A stretch of DNA of 64,000 bases from contig JAFLBR010000001.1 of assembly GCA_017303795.1 (NCBI GenBank), positions 248,001 through 312,000 on the forward strand, in the 5' to 3' direction. Under the pieces are notes generated by a model that saw only the letters and a list, made by a program, of their open reading frames with translations, ran no database searches and was not told the origin of the DNA. The DNA is from Cytophagales bacterium (GTDB lineage Bacteria > Bacteroidota > Bacteroidia > Cytophagales > Cyclobacteriaceae). This document shows, in pieces, positions 11,872 through 31,540 of this stretch (within the stretch, counting starts at the first letter, position 1; every line of letters starts with the position of its first letter). The translations under genes and the position numbers were made by a program.

Positions 11872-13551
11872 ATGAAAACTAACAGACGTAAATTTTTTCA
11901 AAAACTTGGTGTAGGTGCTGCCGGGCTGGGTATAGTATCCCCAATGGGCCTGTCTTCATGTGCAACGGATTCAAAAGAAAAGTCAGATGATGATGACGGA
12001 CAAGTATTGTTTATTGGCGATAACATTGCACTTGCTGAAACAAGCAATGGAAAAGTAAGAGGGTTTATACACAAAGGGATTTATAATTTTTTAGGGATTC
12101 CCTATGCCGCAGATACAACCGGTAAAAATAGATTTATGCCTCCGCAGAAACCTACACCCTGGACGGACATCTACCCAGCTGTGTATTGGCCAAATTCGGC
12201 ACCGCAGATACTCGACAATTTTTTTTCCGGCAATCGCTATCTTTCTTTTACTGACTACTGGCATTATGATGATGTGAGCGAAAATTGTTTGGGGATTAAC
12301 GTGTGGACTCCCGGATATACAGACAACACCAAGCGCCCAGTTATGTTATGGATACACGGTGGTGGGTTTACCAGTGGTAATTCTATTGAACATCCGGAAT
12401 ATCATGGTGAGAATTCTGCACGCAGAAATGATATCGTATTCTGTTCACTTAACCACCGGCTTGGTCCCCTTGGCTTTGCCAACTTTGCAGCTATCGGTGG
12501 CGAAAAATATGCCTCGTCAGGCAATGTAGGTATGCTTGATATTGTGGCGGCACTGGAATGGATCCGCGATAACATATCAAATTTTGGAGGCGATCCGTCA
12601 AATGTAACTATCATGGGGCAATCGGGCGGTGGTGCTAAAGTGTGTACACTTGCTGCCATGCCCGCAGCGAAAGGATTGTTTCATAAAGCAGTGGCATTGA
12701 GTGGTACCTCGTTAAAAGGTGGAGATAAAGAGTATTCTGAAAAATTGGGTTCATACATAGTTAAGGAAGCAGGACTCTCAACATCGCAAATAGATAAACT
12801 ACAGGAGTTACCTTGGCGTGAATATTATGCAATTGCAAATAAAGCAGCAGCAAAATTAAGATCGGAAGCACAAATGCCCGGACTGCGCGGTGGCTTTTCT
12901 CCTGTTGCTGATGGAATTGTCATTCCGCAAGAACCTTACTTCTCGGGTTCACTATCGGCAGATGTACCTATGATTATTTGTAGTACGTTCTATGAACGAT
13001 CGCCAAGTTCTTTCGACTCATCACTTGAAAATATTTCGCTGGATCAGGCCAAAGAACTTACCAAAACGGTGCGTGGCTTCGGAGTTTCACTTACTGAAAA
13101 TGGTTCAACCATTCTGGATGCATACGCCAGAAATTTTCCAGATAAAAAACCAATTGAGATACTCTCACTCGCCATTAGTAACCGAAAAAATACAATTGAC
13201 GCGATCAATGCAAAATCCAAACAAGCAGCACCAACCTACCTGGCCTGGTTTGGATGGAACACACCACTTTTTGATGGTCGCTTGCGTGCATTTCACACCA
13301 TGGACATTGGCTTCTGGTATTTCAATACTGATGTTCAGATTTCGCACACTGGTGGTGGTGCACGGCCCCGTAAACTTGCTTCTAAAATGGCCGATTCATT
13401 GGCGCAGTTTATGAGAACTGGTAATCCGAATGGTGGAGGTTTGCCTGATTGGCCAGCTTATACAGCCAGTGTTGGTGAGACTATGATTCTGGATGATGTT
13501 TGCGAAGTAAAACCAGACCCGGACCGCGATGCGCGTAAATCACTTGGTTGA
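11872..13551 (+). CDS. Type-B carboxylesterase with Tat lipoprotein signal
   Basis: This 559-residue alpha/beta-hydrolase belongs to the type-B carboxylesterase family. The N-terminus carries a twin-arginine motif (NRRKFFQKLG), a hydrophobic stretch and a lipobox-like LSSC, followed by an acidic DDDD patch, so it is probably a Tat-exported lipoprotein. The oxyanion-hole motif IHGGGF and the nucleophile elbow GQSGG with Ser251 are present, and the catalytic His is likely that of FHTMDIGFWY. It lies 40 bases after the fructokinase and before a strong terminator, so it may be the last gene of the fructan transcript. The ester it cleaves is unknown; there is no family-level reason to tie it to fructan. 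Confidence 0.85.
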   Translation: MKTNRRKFFQKLGVGAAGLGIVSPMGLSSCATDSKEKSDDDDGQVLFIGDNIALAETSNGKVRGFIHKGIYNFLGIPYAADTTGKNRFMPPQKPTPWTDIYPAVYWPNSAPQILDNFFSGNRYLSFTDYWHYDDVSENCLGINVWTPGYTDNTKRPVMLWIHGGGFTSGNSIEHPEYHGENSARRNDIVFCSLNHRLGPLGFANFAAIGGEKYASSGNVGMLDIVAALEWIRDNISNFGGDPSNVTIMGQSGGGAKVCTLAAMPAAKGLFHKAVALSGTSLKGGDKEYSEKLGSYIVKEAGLSTSQIDKLQELPWREYYAIANKAAAKLRSEAQMPGLRGGFSPVADGIVIPQEPYFSGSLSADVPMIICSTFYERSPSSFDSSLENISLDQAKELTKTVRGFGVSLTENGSTILDAYARNFPDKKPIEILSLAISNRKNTIDAINAKSKQAAPTYLAWFGWNTPLFDGRLRAFHTMDIGFWYFNTDVQISHTGGGARPRKLASKMADSLAQFMRTGNPNGGGLPDWPAYTASVGETMILDDVCEVKPDPDRDARKSLG

Positions 13552-13585
13552 TTGAAACGCTAAGCAATAAAATGAGATGAATAAA

Positions 13586-13624
13586 AGGAAGAGCTAACAC
13601 GAAGTCGGCTCTTCCTCTTTTTTT
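13586..13624. terminator. Bidirectional intrinsic terminator between convergent operons
   Basis: A perfect 9-bp stem AGGAAGAGC/GCTCTTCCT with a 13-base loop is followed on the + strand by a run of eight T after one C. On the - strand the same stem is followed by TTTTATT, so it can also serve the convergent operon whose last gene stops at 13628. Confidence 0.85.
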
Positions 13625-13627
13625 AAC

Positions 13628-14908
13628 CTACTCAAAAAAAGGCATTCCTGCAACAGCATACTTTTTCATTCCCTCTTCATTTATATCCACTCCAATACCA
13701 GGTTTATCGGATACAGTTATAAAACCGTCTTTGGTAAACTCACCATCAAACTTCACAATCTCTTTAAACATCGGATCTTTATGGAAATAGATTTGCCATT
13801 CCATAATCATAAAGTTAGGAACGGATGCACACACATGGGCACATGCCATAGCACCGAGGTAAGAGGCAACCATGTGCGGAGCAAAGGGTACATAGTATAA
13901 GTTAGCTAAGTTGGCAATGCGTTGCCCTTCACCCAGGCCTCCAGCTTTTTGTAAATCGGGCATAATTATATCCACTGCGCCTTTTTCTAATAACGGCCTG
14001 AAGCCATAGGCCAAGTAATGATTTTCGCCTGCGCAAATTGGTGTGCTTGTAGATTTTGTAATCTCGGCATAAGCATCTGCATTTTCAGCTGGTATGGGTT
14101 CTTCCAACCACATCAGGTTTAACGGTTCAAGAACTTTTGCTACGCGATGTGCAGTGGGTGAATCATATCGCCCATGCATGTCGGCACAAATATCAATCTT
14201 ATTACCAACCGCTTGCCGTGCAGCTGCCATCTGATCGTACATGCGTTGAATTTCCATTGGACTCGCAGTCCAGTTCCATCGGTCGTAGCGGTTCGGATCG
14301 TTTGCCTGATCTAAATCAAACTTAACGGCATTGAATCCCATCGATACGGCTTCTTTCGCAGCCTTTGCAAAATCTTCGGGCTTTGGTAGTTGATTTTGAT
14401 ACAACGCGGTATCCATATACACCCGAACGCGATCGCGAAACTTACCACCCAGTAATTGATACACGGGTACGTTCAATGCTTTACCGGCCAAATCCCACAG
14501 CGCAGTTTCAACCGCACTTAATACGGCCACATAAACACCGGATTGTGCGCCACCAAAAAACGCAGCCTTTCGCAATTGTTCAAAAAGACGATTAACATTA
14601 AGTGGATTCTGATCTTTCAGAAATCGCCCCATGCGTTGAACGAGCGGATAACTTCCGGCAACGGCATCTACACCTTCGCCACAACCGTAAATACCCTGGT
14701 TGGTATGAATCTTAACAAACAATCCATTGCCACCACGGATGAAGGCACACTTCACATCGGTGATTTTTAAATCGGATGGCGCAGAAAGTTTGGAAGTTTT
14801 ATCTATTGCATCTTCATATCCTTTACCAAAGGTTGTAAAGGGAGTTGCTGCAGCGGTGGCAGCAACAAGCGCTGCTTTATTAAGGAATGATCTTCTGGAG
14901 GATGACAT
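13628..14908 (-). CDS. Mandelate racemase/muconate lactonizing (enolase) superfamily dehydratase, Tat-exported
   Basis: This 426-residue protein is a sugar-acid dehydratase-like member of the enolase superfamily. The N-terminus is a clear Tat signal (SRRSFLNK, then an Ala-rich stretch to about residue 27), so it is predicted to fold in the cytoplasm and act in the periplasm. The capping domain is followed by the barrel with KFD (Lys196-x-Asp198), metal ligands Asp243 (in ADMHGRYD), Glu269 (LEEP) and Glu295 (GEN), and a likely base His345 (APHM). The DxHGRYD segment resembles galactonate/mannonate-type dehydratases. It is the last gene of the operon, 26 bases after the RraA-like gene. The exact sugar acid is unknown; epimerase activity is an alternative. 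Confidence 0.88.
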   Translation of the reverse strand: MSSSRRSFLNKAALVAATAAATPFTTFGKGYEDAIDKTSKLSAPSDLKITDVKCAFIRGGNGLFVKIHTNQGIYGCGEGVDAVAGSYPLVQRMGRFLKDQNPLNVNRLFEQLRKAAFFGGAQSGVYVAVLSAVETALWDLAGKALNVPVYQLLGGKFRDRVRVYMDTALYQNQLPKPEDFAKAAKEAVSMGFNAVKFDLDQANDPNRYDRWNWTASPMEIQRMYDQMAAARQAVGNKIDICADMHGRYDSPTAHRVAKVLEPLNLMWLEEPIPAENADAYAEITKSTSTPICAGENHYLAYGFRPLLEKGAVDIIMPDLQKAGGLGEGQRIANLANLYYVPFAPHMVASYLGAMACAHVCASVPNFMIMEWQIYFHKDPMFKEIVKFDGEFTKDGFITVSDKPGIGVDINEEGMKKYAVAGMPFFE

Positions 14909-14934
14909 ATTTTAAAAATTTAGATTCGAATAAA

Positions 14935-15867
14935 TTACCACGTACGTTCTTTTAAAAATTCCTGTATCTGCTCTTTGCCAACAGGCAATTCGTTGATATG
15001 ATCGTTCAACCATTTTGAAAAATCTTTTTCAATGTCATCCGACCATCGGGCATCAATTTGTCCGGCTGTATATTTTCCTTCGCGGATGCGTTGATGACCA
15101 AACAAATCTCTAAGGCGTACAATTTCAGATGTCTTTACTACGCGCTCGGCCAGATGGGGTGGAATAAAAACAACCAAACCCAGTTTGCCCAACACTACAT
15201 CCCCAGGCATAACCGTTACATTTCGAATAAGTGTTGGTTTATTAATTCCTATAATCATGGTGTTGATGTCTTTGCCAGGGTTATGATAGGAGGGATCATA
15301 ACTGGTATAGAAAGATGTGAAACGTCCGATCTCTTTTAATCCTTCCAGATCACGGATGGCGCCATCGTACACAATACCATTACCACTTTTAGCATAGATG
15401 GCATTGCCCACATTATCGCCAATAGTTGGGCCGTTGAGTTTAGCACCGAACTGATTGGCTACATACACATCGCCTTTCACTAAAAGATCAACAGGCCAGG
15501 TGTTTTGGCCGCGCTTGCCTTGCTTTTTCCCAAGTGAGTCAATTGCTTTGTGCATATCAGGGCGGCCCGGCATAAAGATGGCCGTTACTGCACGACCCAC
15601 CAGCACGCTATCCGGATTAATGGTTTGCCAGCCTTCAGCAATCTGATATGAAAAGCCTGCATTTTTCATAGTAGCCCAGGCTTCTTCAATACTTACAGCT
15701 TTCATTCTGCGCAAAATATTGTCAGGAACTTTTGGTCGCCCATCCGGAAAACGTTCGCCTTTCCATTGCGGAGTAAGAAACAATAATTCTTCTTTTGAAA
15801 TTTGTTGCGCATGGCTCTGAACAAATAGTCCGCACCAGACGAGAATGAGAAATGATATTTTTTTCAT
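14935..15867 (-). CDS. RraA-like protein (putative class II aldolase/decarboxylase) with Sec signal peptide
   Basis: This 310-residue protein has a Sec signal peptide (cleavage likely after HA at residue 20) followed by an RraA-like fold. The conserved active-site segment is visible: PTIGDNVGNA near 147-156 and DGAIRD with Arg172 and Asp173, residues that bind metal and substrate in the HMG/CHA aldolases of this family, then MPGDVVLGKLGLVVF. It is longer than typical RraA (about 160-240 residues) because of N-terminal and C-terminal extensions. It sits between a transporter gene and an exported dehydratase. A role in cleaving a keto-acid to pyruvate or in decarboxylation is an inference from family chemistry; the RNase-inhibitor role of E. 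coli RraA is unlikely for an exported protein. Confidence 0.82.
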   Translation of the reverse strand: MKKISFLILVWCGLFVQSHAQQISKEELLFLTPQWKGERFPDGRPKVPDNILRRMKAVSIEEAWATMKNAGFSYQIAEGWQTINPDSVLVGRAVTAIFMPGRPDMHKAIDSLGKKQGKRGQNTWPVDLLVKGDVYVANQFGAKLNGPTIGDNVGNAIYAKSGNGIVYDGAIRDLEGLKEIGRFTSFYTSYDPSYHNPGKDINTMIIGINKPTLIRNVTVMPGDVVLGKLGLVVFIPPHLAERVVKTSEIVRLRDLFGHQRIREGKYTAGQIDARWSDDIEKDFSKWLNDHINELPVGKEQIQEFLKERTW

Positions 15868-15882
15868 AGTTATAATTTTGGA

Positions 15883-17010
15883 TTAAGATTTTATTTCATC
15901 TTCATTTTCCGGAGGCTTACGGTGCCAATAAGAAGCGAGTATGGAACCGGAAATATTCATTAAGGGTGCAAATACAGCCGAGGCCAGACCTACGGTTGCA
16001 ATCTTACCCATCTCTTTTGCAATGCCCGATGCCAGACCAGCGTTCTGCATACCTACTTCAATAGCCACTGTACGACAGTCGCGTTCATTCATGCGCAGTA
16101 ATCGGGCGCTCCAATAGCCCAGCATATAACCGCATAGGTTATGGATCAAAACCAATACAAAGAGAATTAAACCAAGATCAAGCAAACTGTTGCGGCCTGC
16201 AGCTGTAACAAACGTAATTACACCGGCAATACCCAACATCGAGATATAAGGCATTGCTTTATCTAACCATTTAAATTTTCCATGAAGAAGTTTATTGAAT
16301 AACAACCCCGCTCCTATAGGAATCATAATCATTTTGAAGATATCCCACATCATTTTAGTCAGGTCGATTTCTATAAATGTTCCCGCTAATAATTTCATAA
16401 GGAGGGGAGTAACAAAAGGGGCAAGCAATGTGGTGATGGAGGTAATGGTAATAGATAGTGCAAGATTTGCTTTCGCGAGATAGTTCATTACGTTTGAGGC
16501 AAGTCCGCTGGGTGAGCATCCGATCAGAATTATTCCTGCTGCAATTTCGGGTGGAAAGCCGCTGAGTTTCGCCAATGAAAATCCCAGCAAAGGCATAATG
16601 CTAAATTGTGTAACTACTCCAATAACAACTGCTCTGGGTTGCTTCACCACTGAAACAAAATCCTGAGCACTCATGGAAGTACCCATGCCAAACATGATAA
16701 TCTGAATCAGTGGAGTGATGAGTGACATCAACTTGAAACCGCCCACTTCTGTTAGCGGTGCCGGATAATACAGGGCCATCGTTACTACGCCAAAGATCAT
16801 GGTAGAGTAACTAAAGCCTTTCAGTTTTTCTGAGCTTTGAAATGAAATACCCAGCGCAATAAAAAATAAAATAAAAGCCGGCCCGGCATGTTCTATTCCA
16901 GTCCACATAGAAATGGCAAGCCCTGCCAAAAACGAAACGATGGCTACACTAATTGCGATTTTATAGAGTAATGGTTTCAAGTTATTAGCTTTTTTGTTGA
17001 AGGTTGGCAA
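15883..17010 (-). CDS. BASS-family (bile acid:sodium symporter-like) organic-acid transporter
   Basis: This inner-membrane protein of about 375 residues has roughly ten hydrophobic helices and the two BASS signatures: GCSPSGLASNVMNYLAKAN near the middle and VAIEVGMQNAGLASGIAK near the C-terminus. Family members carry sodium-coupled organic anions, including bile acids, pantoate-like acids and pyruvate. No ATG exists before the first helix: the frame opens with a stop directly followed by TTG at 17010, and another TTG lies at 16980, so a non-ATG start is required. The 17010 start overlaps the upstream kinase by 26 bases, which suggests translational coupling. The cargo in this operon may be a product of the exported dehydratase and RraA-like protein. 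Confidence 0.87.
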   Translation of the reverse strand: MPTFNKKANNLKPLLYKIAISVAIVSFLAGLAISMWTGIEHAGPAFILFFIALGISFQSSEKLKGFSYSTMIFGVVTMALYYPAPLTEVGGFKLMSLITPLIQIIMFGMGTSMSAQDFVSVVKQPRAVVIGVVTQFSIMPLLGFSLAKLSGFPPEIAAGIILIGCSPSGLASNVMNYLAKANLALSITITSITTLLAPFVTPLLMKLLAGTFIEIDLTKMMWDIFKMIMIPIGAGLLFNKLLHGKFKWLDKAMPYISMLGIAGVITFVTAAGRNSLLDLGLILFVLVLIHNLCGYMLGYWSARLLRMNERDCRTVAIEVGMQNAGLASGIAKEMGKIATVGLASAVFAPLMNISGSILASYWHRKPPENEDEIKS

Positions 17011-18505
17011 TCATTTCAAACTCGTCTTCGAGTTTCAAACTCAGGCGTTCAAATAATTGATAGTACTGGGCATACACTTTATGATCGTGATGGCGCGGAT
17101 GAAACGTTTCATGAAAGGTTACACTTTTGGCAGCTTCATCCAGGTTGCGATAAATTCCCATGTCGGTTGCCGTAAGTAGAAAAGCACCAAGACCGGCACT
17201 GTTTGCTTTGTTAATCGTGCTAACTGGCTTATTAAAAATATCGGCAATCAATTGCGAACAAAACGGGATAGCAGCAAAACTTCCATTTACAGATAGACTG
17301 GTGATGGAACGATGTTCCTCTACCATTTTTCCAATACTGTAAATCTCGTATAGGATACCTTCAATAGTAGCCCGGATAAAATGTTTCCGTTCATGTTTGA
17401 TGTTAATTCCAAAGTAAGAACCACGGGCATTTGGATTCCACAACGGTGCACGTTCGCCTAAGAGATACGGTAAAAACAACAAGCCTTCTGAACCTGTTAC
17501 TACATTAGATGCTTCATGAATTAAACTCTCGATTGTATATTCTAAATCAAATGGCCCTTTAAACTCACCAAACTGATTGGCGAACCACTCAAAGATTACT
17601 CCGCCACTATTGGTTGGGCCACCCGAGATGTAATGATTCTCTGTTAGCAGATAATTAAAGAAACGTTTCTTTTCATCGCGTAATACTTGTTTGCCTACTA
17701 CGCGCACCGCACCACTATCCTCGATAGTAATGGTGGCTTTATCTTCACCCCACACACCGGCACCTAACGTAGCCATACAGCCATCGCTTGAACCAATCAT
17801 AATGCGCGTGCTGGCTGAAAGCCCTAATGAGGTCTGATATTCTTTACGAAGTTTACCCGGTGTAGTAAATACCGAGCATAGTTCCGGCAATCGATCAACC
17901 GTAATTCCGGCATAATCCAATGCTTGTCCTTCCCACTTCATGGTGTGAATGTTCAGCAAACCAGTAGCTGAAGCCAGGCTGTAATCAATTACATACTCGC
18001 CTGTAAGTTGTTGTAGAATGTAACTCTTAAGGGTGAGAAACTTATGTGTTTGCGCAAATCGCTCTGGATCATTTTTTTTAAGCCATAAAATTTTTAGCAG
18101 GGGCGACATAGGGTGAATGGGCGTACCCGTAGCTTCATAGAGTTTTTTACCTAACTGCGAGTTTTTTAAATCTAATGCTTCTTTCTTCCCGCGGTTATCA
18201 GCCCACGTAATTACGTTGCCCAGCGGTGCACCGTGTGCATCTACCGCAAGCAAACTATGCATGGAAGCGATAAAGCAGATAGACTGTACTTTATACTTTT
18301 TAGGATGGATGCTCTCAATCAGGAAATTTTTGAGCACATATAACATCGTAATAAAAATTTGTTCCGGATCCTGTTCGCTATAGTCAGGTTCGCTGTGGAA
18401 GGTAGGGTACGAGGCCTTGGTGGAACTGATTACGTTGCCCTTCAGGTCAAATGCAAAAAGTCGCACGCCATTGGTTCCAAGTTCAATTGTGATGATGCAT
18501 TCCAT
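16985..18505 (-). CDS. FGGY-family carbohydrate kinase (gluconokinase/xylulokinase-like)
   Basis: This 506-residue cytoplasmic kinase begins with the FGGY ATP-binding start IELGTNGVRLFAFD and has ITWADNR in the substrate-side domain, with a probable catalytic Asp, and the C-terminal segments LLGERAPLWNPNARGSYFG and SVNGSFAAIPFCSQLIAD. Length is typical. It most resembles the gluconokinase branch by the overall pattern, though D-xylulose, glycerol or glyceraldehyde-type substrates are possible. It starts 3 bases after the AraC-type gene and overlaps the transporter gene by 26 bases, so all five genes of this strand are probably one transcript. Confidence 0.88.
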   Translation of the reverse strand: MECIITIELGTNGVRLFAFDLKGNVISSTKASYPTFHSEPDYSEQDPEQIFITMLYVLKNFLIESIHPKKYKVQSICFIASMHSLLAVDAHGAPLGNVITWADNRGKKEALDLKNSQLGKKLYEATGTPIHPMSPLLKILWLKKNDPERFAQTHKFLTLKSYILQQLTGEYVIDYSLASATGLLNIHTMKWEGQALDYAGITVDRLPELCSVFTTPGKLRKEYQTSLGLSASTRIMIGSSDGCMATLGAGVWGEDKATITIEDSGAVRVVGKQVLRDEKKRFFNYLLTENHYISGGPTNSGGVIFEWFANQFGEFKGPFDLEYTIESLIHEASNVVTGSEGLLFLPYLLGERAPLWNPNARGSYFGINIKHERKHFIRATIEGILYEIYSIGKMVEEHRSITSLSVNGSFAAIPFCSQLIADIFNKPVSTINKANSAGLGAFLLTATDMGIYRNLDEAAKSVTFHETFHPRHHDHKVYAQYYQLFERLSLKLEDEFEMIANLQQKS

Positions 18506-18508
18506 ACA

Positions 18509-19399
18509 TTAATTTTTTAAAGAGTCTCGCTTTCTGAATTCACCAGGTGTATAACCTGTTAATTTTTTAAATGTGGTCGAAAAATGTTGCGAAGAGTAAA
18601 AGCCGGTATCTAATGCAATGGCTGTTACTTTCACATTATCTCTGCGTAATAGTTTTATAGCTTCCGATATTCTGATGTTGATTAAATAGTTAAGGGGCGA
18701 AAAGCCGGTGTAACTCTTCACGCGCTCGGTAAAGGCAGTAGTACCCAAACCCACCAGCGCGGCCATTTCTTCTACCGTCCATTGATGGGCCAGGTTTTTT
18801 CGTAGAGCCTGCTCCAGTTTAATAAAAGCCTGCGGGAAGTCGCGTTGTAAATTATTTTGCAGCGTAGACTGGCGGGCAATTAAAATCAGCAGTTCGTCTA
18901 TCAGTTGGTTAACCCGCGTGGTGTACCCGATCTGCTGTTGAAAGAGTTCGGTTTGAATAAGTTGTAAAATCGAAAGTATCGGTTTCATTTTTACCAACAC
19001 GGGTGTTTGGCTCAGGTGTAAGATCCTGCCGATGGTTAAGCTTTCCCGTTCTGATAATCCACTCCACTTACCCAGCACCATTTGCATGTTGCTTTCAACA
19101 CGATCTACTTTAATATGAATCCAGAAAAGACTACCAATGTCCAGAAAATCATTTTCGCCCTGAAACGTTTGGCCGGGAAGTATTACGGCTACATCGCCAG
19201 GGTATAAAATGGTGTGGCGATTCTGTATAATCCACTCAAACTTTCCTTCCATTATATAATAGATCCTAATACAATCAGAAGTAGTCAGGCTCAGGGAGTT
19301 CAATTGAATGGTGTTGTTCTTTCTGATCGCAAATTCAAGAATGTGCGGAAACCCCGACAGTTCTTTGGATTGAGAATGGTGTAGAAAAAACTGATTCAT
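18509..19399 (-). CDS. AraC-family transcriptional regulator
   Basis: This 296-residue regulator has an N-terminal cupin-like sensing domain (about residues 15-150, including YPGDVAVILPGQ) and a C-terminal double helix-turn-helix domain (about 190-296) ending with the AraC signature (ALDTGFYSSQHFSTTFKKLTGYTPGEFRK). It heads the kinase/BASS/RraA/dehydratase operon on the - strand and is divergent from the SusC/SusD pair starting at 19652, so it probably controls both. The ligand is presumably a sugar or sugar acid of that pathway. Confidence 0.92.
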   Translation of the reverse strand: MNQFFLHHSQSKELSGFPHILEFAIRKNNTIQLNSLSLTTSDCIRIYYIMEGKFEWIIQNRHTILYPGDVAVILPGQTFQGENDFLDIGSLFWIHIKVDRVESNMQMVLGKWSGLSERESLTIGRILHLSQTPVLVKMKPILSILQLIQTELFQQQIGYTTRVNQLIDELLILIARQSTLQNNLQRDFPQAFIKLEQALRKNLAHQWTVEEMAALVGLGTTAFTERVKSYTGFSPLNYLINIRISEAIKLLRRDNVKVTAIALDTGFYSSQHFSTTFKKLTGYTPGEFRKRDSLKN

Positions 19400-19651
19400 T
19401 TAGAACTAACCGCGATTGTTAAAAAGCCAATACATTATTCAACCAGAGCAAAACTGGAGAAAACAATTGTAACCGCAAGATGTGAAATCGCTGTTTCTAT
19501 CGAAACCGCAATCGTGTGCAAAATTCACCGCTGGGCATATTTGGAAGTTGTTCGCTATTAAACTTGAAACCTTGCTATCGCTTAAGAGGTGTTCTGGCCA
19601 AATGGCTTTACCCTTTTTGCAGAAACAGACCCAATTAAACCCTTTATAAAA
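19400..19651. promoter_or_regulatory. Divergent regulatory region with three AACCGC direct repeats
   Basis: The 252-base region between the AraC gene and the SusC gene holds both promoters. Three copies of AACCGCrA occur in the same orientation at 19408, 19471 and 19504, with spacings of 63 and 33 bases, close to whole helical turns, as expected for an AraC-type activator binding one face. A short GTTTC-TATC-GAAAC inverted repeat lies at about 19493-19506. A CATATTTG near 19539-19546 is one base off the TAnnTTTG box and could be the SusC -7 element. These are sequence patterns only; no binding is shown. Confidence 0.45.
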
Positions 19652-22600
19652 ATGAGAAAATGCTACTTGCTTTTTTTGACATGCATACTGTTAATGGTAT
19701 GCAGCCATACGCAAGTCTCCGCGCGAGATAACCGTATGTTTGGTTACGAAGCGTTGCTAGATCAGCAACAAATTCGTGGTAAAGTTACCGATGAGAATGG
19801 TTCCGATTTTCCGGGCGTTAACGTAGTGATAAAAGGAACCACGAACGGAACCGTGACCAGTACCGATGGTACCTATATTCTGGATGTGGCCTCCGGTGCA
19901 ACTACACTTGTGTTTTCATTTGTTGGCTACGCTACACAAGAAGTGGCAATCAACGGTCAAACCAGCATCAACATTTCATTGGCACCCGATGTACGCTCAC
20001 TCGATGAAATTGTGGTAACCGCACTTGGAGTTCAAAAAGAATCCAAGAAACTGGGCTACTCGGCTACATTGGTAAAAACAGATGAACTTGTAACACAACG
20101 CACTACTAACGTAATGGAATCATTGGTTGGTAAAGTTGCGGGTTTAAACATTACACCACCGGCAGCCGGTGCAGGCGGAAGTATTCAAGTTCGTTTGCGC
20201 GGGCAAGCAGCTTTTGCGGGTTCCACTAACTCCCCCTTATTTGTCATCAATGGTTTACCCATTAATCAGGATACACGGGGTGCTAATGGTGCTGGTCAGG
20301 TAGCTCAACGCGACCGTGGTGATAACTTGCAGAATTTGAATCCAGATGATATTGAAAGCATGACTGTTTTGAAGGGTGCCACTGCCGCTGCACTATATGG
20401 TTCAAGGGCAGCTAACGGTGCTATTATTATAACTACTAAATCAGGTAGCAAGAATCAGGGCATTGGTGTGGACTACACATCCAGCTATACTGCTTCTCAA
20501 GCGTTAAATTTTATGGGCGAAATCATTCAAACAGAATATGGTGCCGGAAGATTTGGCGTTAGGCCAGCCACACAAGCCAATGCACAAGATAATAGTCATT
20601 TTGCCTGGGGCGAAAGATTGGATGGTGTCCCTTCGGTAAACTTTGATGGTGTACTCAGGCCTTATTCAGCCAACCCTAACCGGCTTTTTGACTTTCTAAG
20701 AACCGGAACAAATTTTACCAATACGGTAGGTTTATCCGGTGGTGGTGCGAATGGAAGTTTCCGGGCATCATTCTCTAGTTCGGATGCAAAAGGTATTGTA
20801 CCCAACAACGAGTACAAGAAAAAGATTTTAAATGTGGGGATTAACCATAACATCACCCAGAAATTAAAGTTGATGATGAATATCAACTATGCGGTGGAGG
20901 CGAATATTAATCCTCCAGCTATAGGCACACAAGGCGATGGCCCGGTTAATTTCTTTACGCGGGTGGCAATTTCTACTCCACTCGAAGCCTTTAGAGAAAG
21001 TGCCATCAACCCAGCAACAGGAGCAGAGTATAGAACCAGCGGATTTTTAGGAACGGTTAACAATCCGTATTACCCGATTCAAAAAAATCAATTCTTTAAT
21101 GATGACAGAAAACGTTTACTCGGAACAGCCACCTTACGCTACGACCTTACCGATTGGCTTTATGTGCAAGGAAGATATAACTATGACTACGGAACAAACT
21201 TCATGGAGTGGAATGAGCTAAATGGAAAAGGGGCTACTACACTGTTTGAAGGAACTACTGGCTTTTACCGTGGCCGGTATGATATCGAGCAAAGTGAATC
21301 TACCGAAATCAATGCCGATTTCTTAATTGGTGGTAACAAAGAGTTTGGAAAGTTCTCAGTCGATGCAGCTTTTGGTGGAAACACGTGGAGAACAGAGTGG
21401 CATAGAAATGCGCAGTTCTCCAGATTATTTGTTGTACCAGATCTATACTCAATTAAAAACGGAACCAATTGGGGAACCAACGATGCAAACTTTCAACCTT
21501 ATTTGTATAGTAGAAGTCGTACTAATTCGCTTTACGGTTGGGCAGAACTTGGATACAACGGAATCTTTTACTTAAATGTAACCGCCAGACAAGACTGGTT
21601 CTCGGTATTAAACCCAGAGGATAACGATGAGTTCTATCCTTCTCTGTCGGGAAGCTTCATTTTTTCTGAGTTGCTCCCAAATCAGGAATGGTTATCATAT
21701 GGGAAATTGAGAGCTTCAATAGCAAAGGTAGGCAGTTCAAATGGTGTTGGTCCATATGACTATCAGCTTTCCTATGCCATCAACCCACAGTTTAATGGTC
21801 AAACTACTTCAGGTATTAACGGAAATTTAGCCCCCAATCCTTTTTTAAGGCCATTTAGTGTACTTGAAAAGGAGATTGGCCTTGAGATGAGATTGTTCAA
21901 CAACAAAGTACTACTTGATATAGCAGCATTTGACAAAGTAACGACCGAACAGATCATGGATGTGAGTATTTCCAACACATCAGGGTACACTTCATCGAAG
22001 CAAAATATTGGGTCAATAAAAAACAGTGGCTTAGAAACTTTGATTGAAGTTACACCTTTAAAGAAAGGTAATTTCACATGGACAACTTCATGGAACAATG
22101 CGTTTCTCGCTACTAAAGTGCTGGATGTAGGTAATGAAAGTGGTACGTTTCTGGTGTTACGTTTTAACGATACCGGTAACGAATTTCTGGGCGAGTTGAG
22201 ATATACTGAAGGGATGGCCATGAATCAGCTTTATGTACGCAGCTATCGCAGAAATGCCAACGGTGAAATTGTTGTAAATGATGCCGGCCGCCTGTTAGCA
22301 ACAAACGGTACTACTCCGGGTGCTGAGAAGACAAATGGCTTCCTTCCTATAGGTAGTTCCATACCAAAGCACACAGGTGGTTGGAACAACACCTTCACAT
22401 ACAAGAATCTTTCACTGGGTGTATTTATAGACTATAAGTTTGGAGGTATGGTGATGTCATCCACACTTTTGAATATGACAAGGCAAGGTCATTCTAAGTT
22501 GTCGTTGGAAGGCAGAAGGGAAGGCGAAACAGGTTTAGTGTTCCCGGCTGTTTACGAAAGCTCAGGGCAACCTAATACTACCGTGGTTACTGATCTGCAA

Positions 22601-22909
22601 AGCTTCTATACCGATTATCGCGGACTTCAGATCGGAGATCCATTCGTATTCAAATCTGACTTTGTTAAGCTAAGAAATATTTCAGTATCCTATAATTTCA
22701 CCAGCCTATTGCAGAGCGTTCCTGCTATGAAATTTGTGAAAGGATTAACACTGACTGCTGCTTGTCGTAACGTGGCCATCCTGCATAAGGATCTGCCCGG
22801 TCTTGATCCGGAAGCTGTTCAATCTTCTGGAGACTACAGGGCAGGATATGAAAATGCATCGTTGCCAACTACCCGCAATTACAATTTCAGTTTAAATGTT
22901 AGATTCTAA
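19652..22909 (+). CDS. SusC/RagA-type TonB-linked outer-membrane transporter (second pair)
   Basis: This protein of about 1085 residues is a SusC-type transporter. The start is put at the ATG at 19652, which gives MRKCYLLFL and a clear signal peptide; the in-frame GTG at 19589 would add 21 hydrophilic residues. A carboxypeptidase-regulatory-like domain (QIRGKVTDENGSDFPGVNV) starts near residue 45, followed by the plug (LFVINGLPIN, LYGSRAANGAI) and barrel, ending with NFSLNVRF. It lies divergent to the AraC/kinase/BASS operon and 4 bases before its SusD partner. No glycosidase is in its own transcript, which ends at a terminator after SusD; the cargo may be a uronide- or aldonate-containing oligosaccharide, by context only. 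Confidence 0.94.
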   Translation: MRKCYLLFLTCILLMVCSHTQVSARDNRMFGYEALLDQQQIRGKVTDENGSDFPGVNVVIKGTTNGTVTSTDGTYILDVASGATTLVFSFVGYATQEVAINGQTSINISLAPDVRSLDEIVVTALGVQKESKKLGYSATLVKTDELVTQRTTNVMESLVGKVAGLNITPPAAGAGGSIQVRLRGQAAFAGSTNSPLFVINGLPINQDTRGANGAGQVAQRDRGDNLQNLNPDDIESMTVLKGATAAALYGSRAANGAIIITTKSGSKNQGIGVDYTSSYTASQALNFMGEIIQTEYGAGRFGVRPATQANAQDNSHFAWGERLDGVPSVNFDGVLRPYSANPNRLFDFLRTGTNFTNTVGLSGGGANGSFRASFSSSDAKGIVPNNEYKKKILNVGINHNITQKLKLMMNINYAVEANINPPAIGTQGDGPVNFFTRVAISTPLEAFRESAINPATGAEYRTSGFLGTVNNPYYPIQKNQFFNDDRKRLLGTATLRYDLTDWLYVQGRYNYDYGTNFMEWNELNGKGATTLFEGTTGFYRGRYDIEQSESTEINADFLIGGNKEFGKFSVDAAFGGNTWRTEWHRNAQFSRLFVVPDLYSIKNGTNWGTNDANFQPYLYSRSRTNSLYGWAELGYNGIFYLNVTARQDWFSVLNPEDNDEFYPSLSGSFIFSELLPNQEWLSYGKLRASIAKVGSSNGVGPYDYQLSYAINPQFNGQTTSGINGNLAPNPFLRPFSVLEKEIGLEMRLFNNKVLLDIAAFDKVTTEQIMDVSISNTSGYTSSKQNIGSIKNSGLETLIEVTPLKKGNFTWTTSWNNAFLATKVLDVGNESGTFLVLRFNDTGNEFLGELRYTEGMAMNQLYVRSYRRNANGEIVVNDAGRLLATNGTTPGAEKTNGFLPIGSSIPKHTGGWNNTFTYKNLSLGVFIDYKFGGMVMSSTLLNMTRQGHSKLSLEGRREGETGLVFPAVYESSGQPNTTVVTDLQSFYTDYRGLQIGDPFVFKSDFVKLRNISVSYNFTSLLQSVPAMKFVKGLTLTAACRNVAILHKDLPGLDPEAVQSSGDYRAGYENASLPTTRNYNFSLNVRF

Positions 22910-22913
22910 GATT

Positions 22914-24482
22914 ATGAAACAAATGAAACCTTACATACTTGCATTAGCAGTAACGCTTTTAGCAACAGCATGCGATAAGGATTTTGTAGAAGTCAATACA
23001 AATCCGTATGCGGTAACAAGTTCAGATCCGGCACTGCTTTTTGCCGGAGCGCAACGCACGCACCTGGGTAACTGGGGCTCAGAACATACTATCGTTCAGC
23101 AATTTGTTAGCCCGTTTAATGATGGTGCTACTATTGGTGTGAATTTTAATGCAGATATAGATCTGAATAATAATCCGAAGTGGGATCAGTCCTATCCTGG
23201 AGCAGTCCGAAATCTGGTGCAGGCTTTAACTATTTTGGGTAACACAACCGACCGTGTCAACCTGAAAAGCATGGTTCGAATCTGGAAAGTTCAGACATTT
23301 ATGGGTTTGGTAGATACGTATGGCGATGTGCCTTACTTCGATGCCGGAAAAGCGGTTAGCAATGGTGTATTTTTCCCAGCCTATGATGATGACGCACTGA
23401 TCTATGATGATTTGTATAACGAATTGAAAGAAGCAATTGCTGCTTTGAATCCGGGTGGCGATTATGTTGGTTCCGATCTTTTCTATGGTGCCAATTCAAA
23501 TGCATCTACCAAAACAACCACAGCCACAGAGCAAGTTGCGAAATGGAAAAAATTAGGTAATTCCTTGTTGCTGCGATTAGGCATGCGGTATTCAAAATTA
23601 AATCCTGCTAAAGCCCAGACCATTGTTGCCGAAGCATTTGCTGGAGGCGTGATGACTTCTAACGCAGACAATGCATATGTAAAGTATGATGGTTCAACGT
23701 ACGTACATGCGGAAAACAATGGCTTGCGTAACTTTTCGCAATTTAATTATGCAGCAGAACCGTTCGTGAATCAACTGAAGGCTACTAACGATCCGCGCGC
23801 CAGGTATATGATTGCCACGTACTTTAATGCTGGTCAGGTAGCCAATGACCTTAATCCAAATACAACGTTAGGAGATCAATATGGTGTTCCGATTGGTGTA
23901 ACGAGTGGACAGATTACAAGTGATCTTATTAACTATAGGGGTTCAAATCCAAATGGTGGACTTGCTTATTCACAGATAAACATTTATGCGGTGGGATCGC
24001 CAGCAGCTCCTGATTTCTATGTAACCTATGCACAGACTTCATTACTCTTAGCTGAAGCAGCCAAAAGAGGTTGGATTCCAGGTGGTGATGCAACAGCACA
24101 AACACATTACGAAAATGCAATCGAGGCTGACATATTGGTGTACTCACTTTACCCAACTACAACCCCAATCTCCGCTACGGCTATTGATAATTACATTGCT
24201 GAACCAGAAGTGGCCTATAATCCAACTGATGCGCTTGAGTTAATCAATACCCAATACTGGATTGTTAATTTCCGGAATGGTACTGAAGCATTTGCAAACT
24301 TTAAGCGTACCGGACTTCCAGCGTTAAGCCCAAACCTTTTTAACAATAATCTAGGTGGTGGCTTTGTAAGAAGGTTAACATATCCTGATCGTGAGGGTTC
24401 TGCCAACAACGCCAACTTTGAGGCAGCATCGGCAGCTATTGGTGGAGATAATCTTACCAGCAGAGTATTTTGGGATAATTAA
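22914..24482 (+). CDS. SusD-like outer-membrane lipoprotein (second pair)
   Basis: This 522-residue lipoprotein partners the preceding SusC. I prefer the ATG at 22914, 4 bases after the SusC stop, giving a short lipoprotein signal with lipobox ending at Cys20 (LLATAC) followed by DKDFVEVNTNP. This N-terminus and the later YAQTSLLLAEAAKRGW and FANFKRTGLP segments fit the SusD/RagB-like family with the SusD-like_2 style rather than the classic RagB type. An in-frame ATG at 22896 would overlap the SusC end. The gene is followed by a strong terminator. Confidence 0.92.
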   Translation: MKQMKPYILALAVTLLATACDKDFVEVNTNPYAVTSSDPALLFAGAQRTHLGNWGSEHTIVQQFVSPFNDGATIGVNFNADIDLNNNPKWDQSYPGAVRNLVQALTILGNTTDRVNLKSMVRIWKVQTFMGLVDTYGDVPYFDAGKAVSNGVFFPAYDDDALIYDDLYNELKEAIAALNPGGDYVGSDLFYGANSNASTKTTTATEQVAKWKKLGNSLLLRLGMRYSKLNPAKAQTIVAEAFAGGVMTSNADNAYVKYDGSTYVHAENNGLRNFSQFNYAAEPFVNQLKATNDPRARYMIATYFNAGQVANDLNPNTTLGDQYGVPIGVTSGQITSDLINYRGSNPNGGLAYSQINIYAVGSPAAPDFYVTYAQTSLLLAEAAKRGWIPGGDATAQTHYENAIEADILVYSLYPTTTPISATAIDNYIAEPEVAYNPTDALELINTQYWIVNFRNGTEAFANFKRTGLPALSPNLFNNNLGGGFVRRLTYPDREGSANNANFEAASAAIGGDNLTSRVFWDN

Positions 24483-27320: not shown

Positions 27321-28157
27321 ATGAAAATTTACCGAACTAAGAAGGGAATTGTAATCGAGCATGAAGGTAACTATTACCCGTCATTTAAATCCGATTGGGA
27401 TGCGTGTGTGAACCGCGCGAATCTCTTTAACACAGTATTAAACGAAATAATAAATTCAAAAGCGGATGCTTCGCTAAAGCAAACTATAGAAACGGAATTA
27501 CGCGCACCCATTGGTAACCAGGAAGTGTGGGCTTCGGGTGTAACGTACCTGCGTAGCCGCGAAGCGCGTATGGAAGAATCGAAAGATGCCGGTGGTGGTG
27601 ATTTTTATGCCCGCGTATATGAAGCCGATCGACCAGAATTATTTTTTAAAGCACCTGCGTATCGCGTAGTAGGTTCAGGCGATAAAGTCCGCATCCGTAA
27701 GGATTCAAAATGGAATGTGCCGGAACCGGAGCTTACGTTGTTTATCTGTTCCACCGGGACTATTGAAGGTTATACCGTAGGCAACGATATGTCTTCGCGC
27801 GACATTGAAGGTGAGAATCCGCTCTATCTGCCGCAAGCTAAATCGTATGATGGCTCAACAGCCATTGGCCCGTGTTTGTTTGTAGCCGAAAAGCCCATCG
27901 CACCCGATGCCATGATCGACATTGTTATCCAACGAAAAGGTGAATCTGTTTTTACCAATGAGATTTCAATAAACCGGATGAAACGCAAACATGTTGAGTT
28001 AGTGGAGTATCTGTTTCGTGAAGTAACCTTTCCATACGGAACGTATTTGATGACGGGTACGGGAATTGTTCCTCCTGATAGTTTTACACTGCAATCGGGC
28101 GATGTGATTAAAATATCTATTGAGAATATCGGTACACTGGAAAATACAGTAGCATAA
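27321..28157 (+). CDS. FAH-family 2-dehydro-3-deoxy-pentonate dehydratase (KdaD-like)
   Basis: This 278-residue cytoplasmic enzyme belongs to the fumarylacetoacetate-hydrolase fold. Segments [50 protein letters not shown] and ISIENIGTL closely follow the archaeal 2-keto-3-deoxy-arabinonate dehydratase pattern as I remember it, which converts 2-dehydro-3-deoxy-pentonate to 2-oxoglutarate semialdehyde. Metal ligands are expected at the Glu pair of EPEL and a following Asp. The start is 7 bases after the GH3 stop, and only one base separates its stop from the next gene, a semialdehyde dehydrogenase that would take its product. D-xylonate, L-arabinonate or both could be the original sugar acid. 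Confidence 0.88.
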
Positions 28158-28158
28158 T

Positions 28159-29748
28159 ATGATCATTGAAGGAAAACAAATTATAGGTTTTGATCGGATG
28201 GCGGAAGGCACCGAAACATTTCAGTCTGCTAACCCGGCATTAGGCACTAAGCTGGAATATAAATTTGTGAAGGCAACGGTACAGGAGGCTAACATGGCTT
28301 GTGAAAAAGCCGCTGCTGCTTTTCAAGTGTATCGGAAAAAATCAGGTATTGAAAAGGCTGTGTTTCTGGAAACCATTGCCGAAGAAATAAAAGCATTGGG
28401 CGATCAGCTCATTGAAGTATGTTGTGCTGAAACTGCATTACCCAAACCGAGAATAGAAGGCGAACGCGGTCGCACCGTCAACCAATTGTTGTTGTTTGCC
28501 ACTATGCTTCGTGAAGGTTCATGGTTAGATGCGCGTATTGAAACGGCAGAACCATCGCGCACACCATTACCCAAACCTGACATCCGCTATATGCATGTGG
28601 GCTTAGGTCCGGTGGTTGTTTTTGGAGCCAGTAATTTTCCGCTCGCATTTTCAGTAGCCGGTGGCGATACCGCTTCGGCTTTGGCTGCGGGTTGCCCGGT
28701 AATTGTAAAAGTACATTCTGCACATCCGGCCACGGGTGAGTTAGTGGGAAGAGCAATTCAACAAGCAGCGAAGAAAACCGGTATGCCCGATGGTGTATTC
28801 TCTATGTTGCATGGGGATGGCAGTGTGGTGGGTATGCAGTTGGTAAAACATAAACTGATTAAAGCAGTTGGGCTAACCGGATCGTTCAAAGCCGGTAAGG
28901 CATTATTTGATGCAGCCGTGAAGCGCGATGAACCTATACCGGTATATGCCGAGATGGGCAGCACGAACCCCGTGTTTATTCTTCCGGAGGCCATGCGCGC
29001 TAACAAAGAAAAAATTGCGCAAGGCTATGCAGCATCGGTTACACAAGGTGTTGGACAGTTTTGTACCAATCCGGGGTTGCTACTCTATCAAAAAGGTGAT
29101 GGAGCAAAAGAATTTACTTCGCAGGTAAAAGAAGAGTTTGAAAAAACTTCCGGTGGCGCCATGCTTACGGAAACAATTTTTAAATCTTATAGTGAAGGTG
29201 TGTCAAAGCACGCTTCCAAACAAGAGATAGAGGTGTTGGCAAATGGTGTACAAGTGGATGGTGTTAACCGCGCGCATCCGGTGTTGTTTAAAACAACCGG
29301 CAATGTGCTGGCTACGCATCATGAATTAACGGAAGAAATTTTCGGGCCTACCAGTGTGGTGGTTGAGATAAATGCAAAAGATGAAGTATTGTCGATTGCA
29401 CGGAATCTCTCCGGACATCTTACCGCTACAGTTCATGGCACGGATGCAGATTTAATGGAGTACAAAGAATTGCTGGACATACTCGAACAGAAAGTTGGTC
29501 GCATCGTAATCAATGGATTTCCTACCGGAGTAGAAGTTTGCCATGCGATGGTGCATGGTGGTCCGTATCCTTCTACTACCGATGGAAGAAGTACATCGGT
29601 TGGAACAGCAGCTGTTTTCAGGTTTACCCGAGCAGTTTGTTATCAAGGTCTTCCACAAGCATTGCTACCTGCAGAACTGAAAAATGAAAACCCTCTTAAC
29701 ATTTCGCGATTGGTGAATGGGGTAAGAACTAACAATCGCATCGGGTAG
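28159..29748 (+). CDS. Alpha-ketoglutaric semialdehyde dehydrogenase
   Basis: This 529-residue NAD(P)-dependent aldehyde dehydrogenase has the catalytic Cys302 in GVGQFCTNPG, a general-base region with PVYAEMGSTNPVFILPEAM, and coenzyme-side segments VFGASNFPLAFSVAGGDTASALAAG. These match the branch that oxidises 2,5-dioxopentanoate to 2-oxoglutarate in sugar-acid and hydroxyproline pathways. It follows the KdaD-like gene with one base between, and precedes the IlvD/Edd dehydratase, so the three genes together make the lower Weimberg route. The protein is cytoplasmic. Confidence 0.9.
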   Translation: MIIEGKQIIGFDRMAEGTETFQSANPALGTKLEYKFVKATVQEANMACEKAAAAFQVYRKKSGIEKAVFLETIAEEIKALGDQLIEVCCAETALPKPRIEGERGRTVNQLLLFATMLREGSWLDARIETAEPSRTPLPKPDIRYMHVGLGPVVVFGASNFPLAFSVAGGDTASALAAGCPVIVKVHSAHPATGELVGRAIQQAAKKTGMPDGVFSMLHGDGSVVGMQLVKHKLIKAVGLTGSFKAGKALFDAAVKRDEPIPVYAEMGSTNPVFILPEAMRANKEKIAQGYAASVTQGVGQFCTNPGLLLYQKGDGAKEFTSQVKEEFEKTSGGAMLTETIFKSYSEGVSKHASKQEIEVLANGVQVDGVNRAHPVLFKTTGNVLATHHELTEEIFGPTSVVVEINAKDEVLSIARNLSGHLTATVHGTDADLMEYKELLDILEQKVGRIVINGFPTGVEVCHAMVHGGPYPSTTDGRSTSVGTAAVFRFTRAVCYQGLPQALLPAELKNENPLNISRLVNGVRTNNRIG

Positions 29749-29753
29749 TTGTC

Positions 29754-29787
29754 AGTCGTCAAGACCACTTGAAGTGGTCAGACGACT
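29754..29787. repeat. Intergenic 34-base imperfect palindrome
   Basis: AGTCGTC and GACCACTT on the left mirror AAGTGGTC and GACGACT on the right, with two and one unpaired bases between the blocks and a tight centre. It lies between the semialdehyde dehydrogenase stop and the dehydratase start, inside an otherwise tightly packed operon. No T-run follows. It may be a REP-like element or an RNA-processing or stabilising hairpin; I found no second copy in the window. Confidence 0.5.
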
Positions 29788-29827
29788 AATTAGAGTTAGA
29801 ATAAAAAAATATAATACAGATAGTTTT

Positions 29828-31540
29828 ATGGCGTACAGAAGTTCAGAGTGGTTCGGCAAGAAAGATAAAATGGGTTTTATCTACAGAAGTTGGATGAAGA
29901 ACCAGGGTTTTCCTGAAGACCTTTTTGATGGCCGACCGGTAATTGGTATTTGTAATACGTGGTCTGAACTTACACCGTGCAACGCGCACTTGCGTGAAAT
30001 TGCTGAATGGGTGAAGCGTGGTGTATATGAAGCCGGTGGATTTCCATTAGAGTTTCCCATCATGTCGCTTGGCGAAACGTTACTGAAACCAACTGCCATG
30101 TTGTTCAGAAACCTGGCCAGTATGGATGCGGAAGAATCCATTCGCGGCAACCCGATAGATGGCGTTGTATTGTTAACCGGTTGCGATAAGACAACACCTT
30201 CCACATTAATGGGTGCGGCAAGTGTTGATTTGCCAACGTTGGTTGTTCCGGGTGGCCCGATGCTGAATGGAAAGTATCAGGGAAAAGATATTGGCTCTGG
30301 TACTTCCGTGTGGAAGTTTACCGATGATCTGAAGACCGGAAAGATTACCTATGATGAATATTCACATGCTGAAAGTTGTATGTCGCGCAGCCCCGGCCAT
30401 TGCATGACGATGGGCACGGCTTCTACCATGGCGTGCATGGTGGAATCGTTGGGTATGACCTTGCCCGGAGCGGCTGCTATACCGGCAGTGGATTCGCGCA
30501 AGAAAGTATTGGCGCAACTTTCCGGAAGAAGAATTGTGGAGATGGTGAAAGAAGATTTGAAAATCTCTAAGATTCTGACCCGTAAAGCTTTTGAAAATGC
30601 TATTAAAGTAAATGCTGCCGTTGGCGGATCTTCCAACTTTTTAATTCACCTCACGGCTATTGCCGGTAGAATTGGTGTTGACTTAAATCTGGATGATTTT
30701 GATAAGATCGGTAGTAAGATTCCTCTGTTGTTGAACCTGATGCCATCGGGTAAATTTCTGATGGAAGATTTTTATTATGCGGGTGGATTACCCGTTATCA
30801 TTAGTCAACTAAAAGAACAACTGCACATGGATGCATTAACCGTGAATGGTAAAACACACGGTGACAACATTGCAGGCCGCGATAACAACTATAACAAAGA
30901 AGTAATTGCTGATTATAAAAAGCCATTTATACCGGAAGCTGGTATTGTGGTACTGAAAGGTAATCTCGCGCTGAATGGTGCGGTGATCAAACCATCGGCT
31001 GCCACACCTGCATTAATGAAACACAAAGGTCGTGCGGTAGTGTTTGAAGATATTGAAGATTACCATAACCGTGTGGACGATCCCAACTTAGACATTGACG
31101 AAACCTGTGTAATGGTTTTAAAAATGGTTGGCCCCGTAGGTTATCCCGGTATGCCCGAAGTAGGGAATATGACACTGCCGAAGAAACTTTTAGATAAAGG
31201 TATTACAGACATGGTACGCATTTCTGATGGTCGCATGAGTGGTACTGCTTATGGTACCGTGGTGTTGCACGTATCGCCTGAGTCAGCTATTGGTGGTAAC
31301 CTGGCATTGGTGCAAAATGGTGATATAATTGAGTTGAATGTGGAATCAAAACTTATTCACCTGCATGTTTCGGATGAAGATCTGGAGAAACGCAGAAAAA
31401 ATTGGAAGCAAGCCGAACCGTTTGCCAATCGGGGTTATGTAAACCTATATGTAAAACATGTGCAGCAATCCGATAAGGGTGCTGACCTTGATTTTCTGGT
31501 TGGCAAGTCAGGATCGAAAGTAGCCCGCGATTCACATTAA
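29828..31540 (+). CDS. IlvD/Edd-family sugar-acid dehydratase (pentonate dehydratase)
   Basis: This 570-residue Fe-S dehydratase converts a pentonate such as xylonate or arabinonate to the 2-keto-3-deoxy acid. I start it at the ATG at 29828 (MAYRSSEWFGKKD); an upstream in-frame GTG at 29774 falls in the intergenic palindrome. The start matches sugar-acid dehydratases of this family (WFG..D..GFI.RSWMKNQG) rather than IlvD itself. Cluster-binding Cys residues are expected in ICNTWSELTPCN, TGCDKTTP and GHCMTMGTAS. The order in the operon, with KdaD-like and semialdehyde dehydrogenase genes just upstream, completes pentonate to 2-oxoglutarate. Confidence 0.92.
   Translation: MAYRSSEWFGKKDKMGFIYRSWMKNQGFPEDLFDGRPVIGICNTWSELTPCNAHLREIAEWVKRGVYEAGGFPLEFPIMSLGETLLKPTAMLFRNLASMDAEESIRGNPIDGVVLLTGCDKTTPSTLMGAASVDLPTLVVPGGPMLNGKYQGKDIGSGTSVWKFTDDLKTGKITYDEYSHAESCMSRSPGHCMTMGTASTMACMVESLGMTLPGAAAIPAVDSRKKVLAQLSGRRIVEMVKEDLKISKILTRKAFENAIKVNAAVGGSSNFLIHLTAIAGRIGVDLNLDDFDKIGSKIPLLLNLMPSGKFLMEDFYYAGGLPVIISQLKEQLHMDALTVNGKTHGDNIAGRDNNYNKEVIADYKKPFIPEAGIVVLKGNLALNGAVIKPSAATPALMKHKGRAVVFEDIEDYHNRVDDPNLDIDETCVMVLKMVGPVGYPGMPEVGNMTLPKKLLDKGITDMVRISDGRMSGTAYGTVVLHVSPESAIGGNLALVQNGDIIELNVESKLIHLHVSDEDLEKRRKNWKQAEPFANRGYVNLYVKHVQQSDKGADLDFLVGKSGSKVARDSH

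Follow-up and report, generated by a model that had tools for sequence, protein, structure and literature searches.

Sugar-acid catabolism is, to our knowledge, generally held to be cytoplasmic. The non-phosphorylative Entner-Doudoroff and Dahms-type routes dehydrate an acid and then cleave the resulting 2-keto-3-deoxy acid, both steps taking place in the cytoplasm with aldolases of families other than RraA. For the RraA fold, one study states that most homologues carry one of two motifs and are likely class II pyruvate aldolases (PMC5065237). Here we describe an operon in a stretch of 64,000 nucleotides (the window; positions 248,001 to 312,000 of contig JAFLBR010000001.1, assembly GCA_017303795.1, or G000:C1:248001-312000 in our numbering) from the 4.87 Mb genome of a Cytophagales bacterium, in which the same order of chemistry may be followed outside the inner membrane. 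On its minus strand lie a mandelate racemase/muconate lactonizing enzyme (MR/MLE) type enolase-superfamily protein, a candidate sugar-acid dehydratase (13628-14908), and an RraA-like protein, a candidate class II pyruvate aldolase (14935-15867), both with export signals. Next to them is a transporter of the BASS family (SBF; 15883-17010, TTG start), the candidate importer of the product.

Loci were collected by similarity to the window RraA (the best 80 of 113 relatives, with further regions of related genomes), and open reading frames (ORFs) were called in 97 loci and the window and labelled against the window proteins. Scores above 500 bits define the close enolases and scores above 400 bits the close RraAs, 43 rows in each case. 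The sets have 41 rows in common (40 loci plus the window); L074 and L079 belong to the enolase set alone, L058 and L118 to the RraA set alone. Two loci, L048 and L116, are one contig counted twice. In 42 of 43 rows the two genes share a strand, with RraA directly upstream of the enolase and a median gap of 44 nucleotides; at L079, the sole row lacking an upstream RraA call, an RraA match is placed there and an ORF of the opposite strand was kept over it. Neighbour counts are conditional on RraA, because the loci were fetched by RraA similarity, and a comparison of 96 related genomes is free of that condition. A close enolase occurs in nine of these genomes, a close RraA in nine and both in eight. 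In G074 the RraA lies close to a contig end (locus L118) and the enolase is cut, while in G006 the enolase stands at a contig start and the sole RraA match, at the end of another contig, is more distant (51%). Second copies of the enolase and RraA genes were also mapped.

The named loci bearing the pair belong to six orders of Bacteroidota (Cytophagales, Chitinophagales, Flavobacteriales, Sphingobacteriales, Marinilabiliales and Saprospirales). Clusters of SusC and of SusD genes each occur near the pair in 18 of 42 loci (cluster counts leave the window out), and one member of a SusD-type cluster (L119) was confirmed by Pfam. The pair, a cassette that recurs in Bacteroidota and often has SusC/SusD genes nearby, is not peculiar to the host genome. 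Pairing also persists where signals are lacking: 7 of 22 RraA loci in a mostly Bacillota set, which also takes in a Spirochaetia record (L078) and an uncultured bacterium (L098), contain an enolase relative. The joint function that an earlier note on this DNA had supposed for the two proteins is strongly supported by this conserved pairing, and it is highly probable that they act in one pathway.

The same note had read a twin-arginine translocation (Tat) signal in the enolase, a Sec signal in the RraA-like protein and neither in the kinase of the operon, and this is borne out by the sequences. The enolase begins with MSSSRRSFLNKAALVAATAAATPFTTFG, a Tat-type signal peptide of about 29 residues (14822-14908) in which SRRSFL is followed by a hydrophobic stretch, and the RraA-like protein with MKKISFLILVWCGLFVQSHAQ, a Sec-type signal peptide of about 20 residues (15808-15867) ending in SHAQ. 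Tat and Sec calls were made by hand-made rules of our own, a first, lax rule based on hydrophobicity and a later, strict one. A twin-arginine motif followed by a hydrophobic stretch was found under our rule in all 43 close enolases, as compared with 37 of 583 other proteins of the window and of the loci, those of the mostly Bacillota set excepted. The strict Sec rule was passed by 40 of 43 close RraAs and by 284 of the same 583 proteins. The RraA figure is less striking than that of the enolase, and a Sec signal alone is weak evidence, since the base rate is high and the loci are rich in exported proteins. Among the three close RraAs that fail the strict rule, the starts in L055 and L066 look over-extended, and that in L118 was missed owing to an Arg inside the hydrophobic stretch.

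The lax rule recognised all 43 close RraAs but also flagged 6 of 12 FGGY kinases, 1 of 7 KGSADH and 1 of 12 AraC proteins, and the strict rule is therefore the more trustworthy; under it neither Tat nor Sec signals were called in any of 36 FGGY, KGSADH, EDD and FAH controls, the 12 FGGY kinase rows included. Signals extend to more distant relatives outside the mostly Bacillota set: 21 of 23 distant enolases are Tat-like by the first rule and all 23 by the second, and 46 of 52 distant RraAs carry a signal by the lax rule and 44 by the strict one. Within the mostly Bacillota set, signals were found in none of 22 RraA relatives and none of nine enolase relatives. An RraA tree was built by FastTree alone, which gave long-branch warnings, from 115 of 117 rows, two short ones being dropped; on it the export label needs five changes, at least four of them forced by starred branches. 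The four rows without a signal there that are not of the mostly Bacillota set are L039 and L074, which lie at the edge of a locus or contig, L128, a fragment, and L037, which falls just below the threshold. TatC is encoded by the host genome. Conservation of the signals across relatives strongly supports the predicted export, and we consider it very highly probable that both enzymes leave the cytoplasm.

Membership of the enolase superfamily is clear from two MR_MLE domains (PF13378/PF02746) scoring 206.8 bits against a Pfam cut-off of 29.4 and 45.6 bits against 22, the same two domains as in D-galactonate dehydratase and other MR/MLE enolases. K196, D198, D243, H245, E269, E295, D318, H345 and E370 (numbering includes the first Met) are invariant in all 43 close enolases. 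D243, E269 and E295, the acidic triad of the superfamily, are presumably the metal ligands, and D198 we take to be the second residue of the K-x-K base position. In a second type of enolase (32 rows), position 245 is never His, and His is found at 244 in 30 rows. The closest solved chain, 2qq6, is named only mandelate racemase/muconate lactonizing enzyme-like, and about 40 N-terminal residues of the window protein, including the Tat motif, fall outside the alignment with it. One distant enolase relative (26% identity) is present in the host genome. The dehydration proposed in the earlier note is supported by family membership and invariant catalytic-type residues, although no equivalog model was reached.

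A few observations on related genes may be recorded here. Adjoining the cassette in L063 are three second-type enolase genes in tandem (13286-17650), and another enolase-domain protein (MR_MLE_C, 47.6 bits; L054, 17656-19044), whose start is of RR type and which has a GH67-type gene nearby, belongs to a cluster found in four Larkinella loci. In the window, a carboxylesterase with a twin-arginine start (MKTNRRKFF; 11872-13551) is convergent with the enolase gene.

The RraA-like protein matches PF03737 at 49.1 bits (cut-off 24.5), the one match to that family in the host genome. D151-X20-R172-D173 is invariant in all 43 close RraAs and corresponds to D-X20-R-D, which we take to be the pyruvate aldolase motif. 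Of the 52 more distant RraAs that do not belong to the mostly Bacillota set, 33 retain D151. A profile built from 56 sequences, out of 68 rows picked, matches the 4-hydroxy-4-methyl-2-oxoglutarate/4-carboxy-4-hydroxy-2-oxoadipate (HMG/CHA) aldolase 3noj with an E-value of 2.3e-14, and D151, R172 and D173 align to D102, R123 and D124 of its printed chain. In the aldolase, as given in PMC5065237, Arg-123 is essential and is the proposed stabiliser of the pyruvate enolate, and Asp-124 binds the metal together with Glu-199. The window protein differs from 3noj in its export signal, its length of about 310 residues and an extra N-terminal region. Cleavage of a C-C bond by the RraA-like protein is plausible on these grounds.

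The transporter carries the SBF domain PF01758 at 137.7 bits (cut-off 24.3). Its best NCBIfam model is PanS. The closest solved chains, both deposited under the name Transporter, are 3zuy and 8oyf, which we take to be the ASBT-NM protein. The residues equivalent by alignment to Ser114, Asn115, Glu260, Gln264 and Asn265 of ASBT-NM, as numbered in PMC10645422, are retained. These sodium-site positions are well conserved in 29 rows (S172 in 28, N173 in 29, E318 and Q322 in 28 with one gap, N323 in 28-29), whereas the position of Thr112 is Leu170 in the window protein (21 L, 7 M and 1 T among the rows). ASBT-NM binds pantoate and not ketopantoate, according to PMC10645422, which cautions against presuming a keto-acid cargo for the window transporter. 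Counting the window, 23 of 43 rows have a BASS gene within six same-strand genes of the pair, and a BASS cluster occurs in 22 of the 42 loci. The import suggested in the earlier note thus gains from repeated proximity and retained sodium-site residues; against it, 20 of 43 rows have no BASS gene within six same-strand genes, some stretches being cut short, and four of the BASS-less loci have an MFS carrier instead.

Upstream of the transporter gene are an FGGY sugar kinase without signal (16985-18505; PF00370/PF02782), gluconokinase-like and closest among solved chains to 3gbt, deposited as gluconate kinase, and, at the head of the operon, an AraC-type regulator (18509-19399; PF12833/PF00165). 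Their orthologues occur together, each in 11 of the 42 loci. All five genes are on the minus strand with intergenic gaps of 3, -26, 15 and 26 nucleotides from AraC to enolase, and each falls in its Pfam family above the cut-off, confirming the single five-gene set described before. Divergent from it on the plus strand are a SusC-like (19589-22909) and a SusD-like gene (22896-24482), named from sequence without a Pfam scan. A promoter scan gave 11 matches against 13.3 expected, and terminator-like matches numbered 11 against 6.2 expected (standard deviation 3.2); neither was used as evidence.

These observations can be assembled into a pathway. A sugar or oligosaccharide would be brought into the periplasm by the SusCD pair or another route, and the Tat-exported enzyme would dehydrate an aldonate-like acid to a 2-keto-3-deoxy acid with no organic cofactor, as its family and residues suggest. 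The Sec-exported RraA-like protein, with a divalent metal and its Asp/Arg-Asp site, would most likely perform an aldol cleavage to pyruvate and an aldehyde. The sodium-coupled BASS protein, from its proximity, may take up the resulting acid, pyruvate or a keto acid, and the FGGY kinase may phosphorylate, within the cytoplasm, either the aldonate or some further product. We place the whole chain, a Bacteroidota cassette that handles a sugar acid in the periplasm by dehydration, then RraA action, then BASS uptake, at slightly less than an even chance. The more specific version, in which acids delivered by SusCD are dehydrated and cleaved in the periplasm to pyruvate and an aldehyde, BASS imports the acid, and RraA with BASS forms a module joined also by other exported lyases, is possible but distinctly less likely. 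Of the overall proposal made from the sequence beforehand, export and joint function have thus held up well, and dehydration and import in part.

As a first guess, the substrate may be a 2R aldonate (xylonate, arabinonate, gluconate or galactonate), because of the mechanism of the His base and the adjacent pentonate-type genes at 27321-34025. A lone His base suits acids of 2R configuration and not D-glucuronate. The adjacent genes encode an FAH-family protein, an aldehyde dehydrogenase (below the cut-off of its best model, 2,5-dioxovalerate dehydrogenase), an IlvD/EDD dehydratase (856.8 bits with the L-arabinonate dehydratase model, cut-off 882), an esterase and then a GntP carrier (32715-34025), and together look like a cytoplasmic Weimberg-type pentonate route.

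Several observations weigh against the pathway. As all listed NCBIfam models remain below cut-off, no experimentally based name can be given to the enolase (270.2 bits with its best model, the galactonate dehydratase NF010624, cut-off 311), the RraA-like protein (35 against 179 and 30.9 against 304.5 bits with HMG/CHA aldolase models), the BASS protein (236.5 against 400 bits with PanS and 235.8 against 326.3 with the 'bass' subfamily model) or the kinase (432.6 against 648.55 bits with the gluconokinase TIGR01314). We know of no activity for any member of the cassette, and the supply of aldonate to the periplasm is something that we infer. To these may be added the rows lacking BASS mentioned above and the RraA frame of G051, which is interrupted by one TGA. 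In the mostly Bacillota RraAs, G replaces D151 and Q stands three residues past R-D in 22 of 22; the aldolase motif is hence not needed beside an enolase, as members with enolase neighbours also have G at this position. The host further keeps a separate UxaC-UxuA-SDR-GH67 locus without the pair, and a MOFRL glycerate kinase was not found in its genome, other glycerate kinase families not being searched. Glucuronate itself as a simple substrate was rejected in view of the former finding, and a route in the host from glyceraldehyde through glycerate to 2-phosphoglycerate in view of the latter.

The gene context of related loci bears on whether cleavage takes place at all. The order in L042, all on one strand, is RraA, enolase, BASS, FAH, KGSADH, EDD and GntP; L045 matches it except that no KGSADH was called. 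Full or partial sets of the latter four are found near the cassette in L042, L044, L045 and L066 (FAH in 7, KGSADH in 6, EDD in 5 and GntP in 4 of 42 loci), and a set of this kind occurs in the window at 27321-34025. Such arrangements favour a course in which the acid is dehydrated in the periplasm without cleavage, the RraA-like protein carrying out another enolate reaction (isomerisation, decarboxylation) on the 2-keto-3-deoxy acid and BASS importing a C5/C6 keto acid, which would be finished in the cytoplasm by FAH/KGSADH or by a kinase and aldolase. L110 (uncultured Clostridia) is also in keeping with this course: its enolase gene is followed by GH10-like, SDR, RraA and lactonase genes, a 173-residue ORF, a 2-keto-3-deoxy-6-phosphogluconate (KDPG) aldolase above its model cut-off and a 2-keto-3-deoxygluconate (KDG) kinase-like gene below the cut-offs. 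The lost first Asp of the mostly Bacillota RraAs points the same way. On the other hand, none of the three motif residues is lost in any of the 43 exported RraAs, which fits aldolase chemistry, and L036, with a MOFRL-type glycerate-2-kinase-like gene (below equivalog cut-offs) about 3 kb upstream of BASS-RraA-enolase and a GntP-type carrier also upstream, would suit glyceraldehyde as a product. We therefore regard processing without cleavage as a real but rather unlikely alternative. Less probable still is that the enolase acts as an epimerase and the RraA-like protein is non-catalytic, with BASS importing intact aldonate for the gluconokinase-like FGGY kinase. The affinity of the kinase to FGGY gluconokinases and, from PMC5065237, the role of E. 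coli RraA as a regulator of RNase E would agree with it, but the Asp/Arg-Asp motif and the strong conservation of RraA argue otherwise, and a GntP-family carrier is already present at 32715-34025.

A further alternative concerns the substrate, in that the enolase may act on a glucuronoxylan uronic acid such as 4-O-methylglucuronate, losing the C4 substituent (methanol) beside the acidic C5 hydrogen to give a 4-deoxy-5-keto uronate. Eight loci of Spirosoma, Larkinella and G085 have after the pair, in full or in part, a set made up of an MFS carrier, a CE15-type esterase, UxuA, GH67 and an SDR, and one Larkinella locus, L050, has none of these genes; over the 42 loci the clusters number 7 for GH67 type, 6 each for UxuA and SDR, 5 for CE15 type and 4 for MFS, with families assigned from representatives. 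In G006 the enolase is followed by an altronate/galactarate dehydratase-family gene. GH67 occurs in 6 of the 10 genomes with either member of the pair and in 11 of the other 86 (p 0.0018 by Fisher's test), but counts restricted to the genus show a weak link (3 of 6 genomes with, 7 of 52 without; p 0.057), and no association with GH115 was found (1 of 10 against 9 of 86 genomes). The separate glucuronate locus of the host, the presence of Asp198 in 43 of 43 enolases at what we take to be the K-x-K position and the preference of a lone His base for 2R acids also count against a uronate, which we hold to be improbable.

Returning to the exported pathway with a 2-keto acid intermediate, relatives of differing closeness show what may take the place of the enolase. 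In L120 and L121, BASS and RraA genes are accompanied by a seven-bladed lactonase and a GSDH-cytochrome c protein. GSDH enzymes use pyrroloquinoline quinone, and the host genome holds four places of this family. In L070 (10001-12703), BASS and RraA occur with a Tat-like RidA and a DgaE-like pyridoxal phosphate lyase (below model cut-off), and in L123, where no BASS was called, RraA occurs with a RidA that is Tat-like too and with DgaE-like lyases. This set possibly exchanges the enolase for another type of keto-acid-forming enzyme, giving an amino-acid version of the exported module. Taken with L110 and L036, these loci seem to favour an acid that arises by oxidation or deamination and is turned into a 2-keto acid.

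Elsewhere in the window, a zinc alcohol dehydrogenase frame (48417-49226) stops early and seems to resume in another frame until about 49430, owing to a frameshift or an assembly error. A 1163-residue protein (38030-41521) combines a HEAT repeat with domains of ThuA, DUF7133 and copper-binding cupredoxin type, and downstream of it are a TIM-barrel-type and then a Gfo/Idh-type gene, both labelled from sequence.

No description of an exported RraA-enolase cassette was found in the open-licence literature searched, including the available parts of PMC5507952, PMC5788505 and PMC12584681. The chemistry is of a known kind, and its periplasmic place would be new. If the proposal is true, a dehydratase and a probable aldolase would stand outside the inner membrane, models of sugar-acid use in Bacteroidota would have to be revised, and functions would be gained for an uncharacterised RraA subfamily and for a BASS subfamily.

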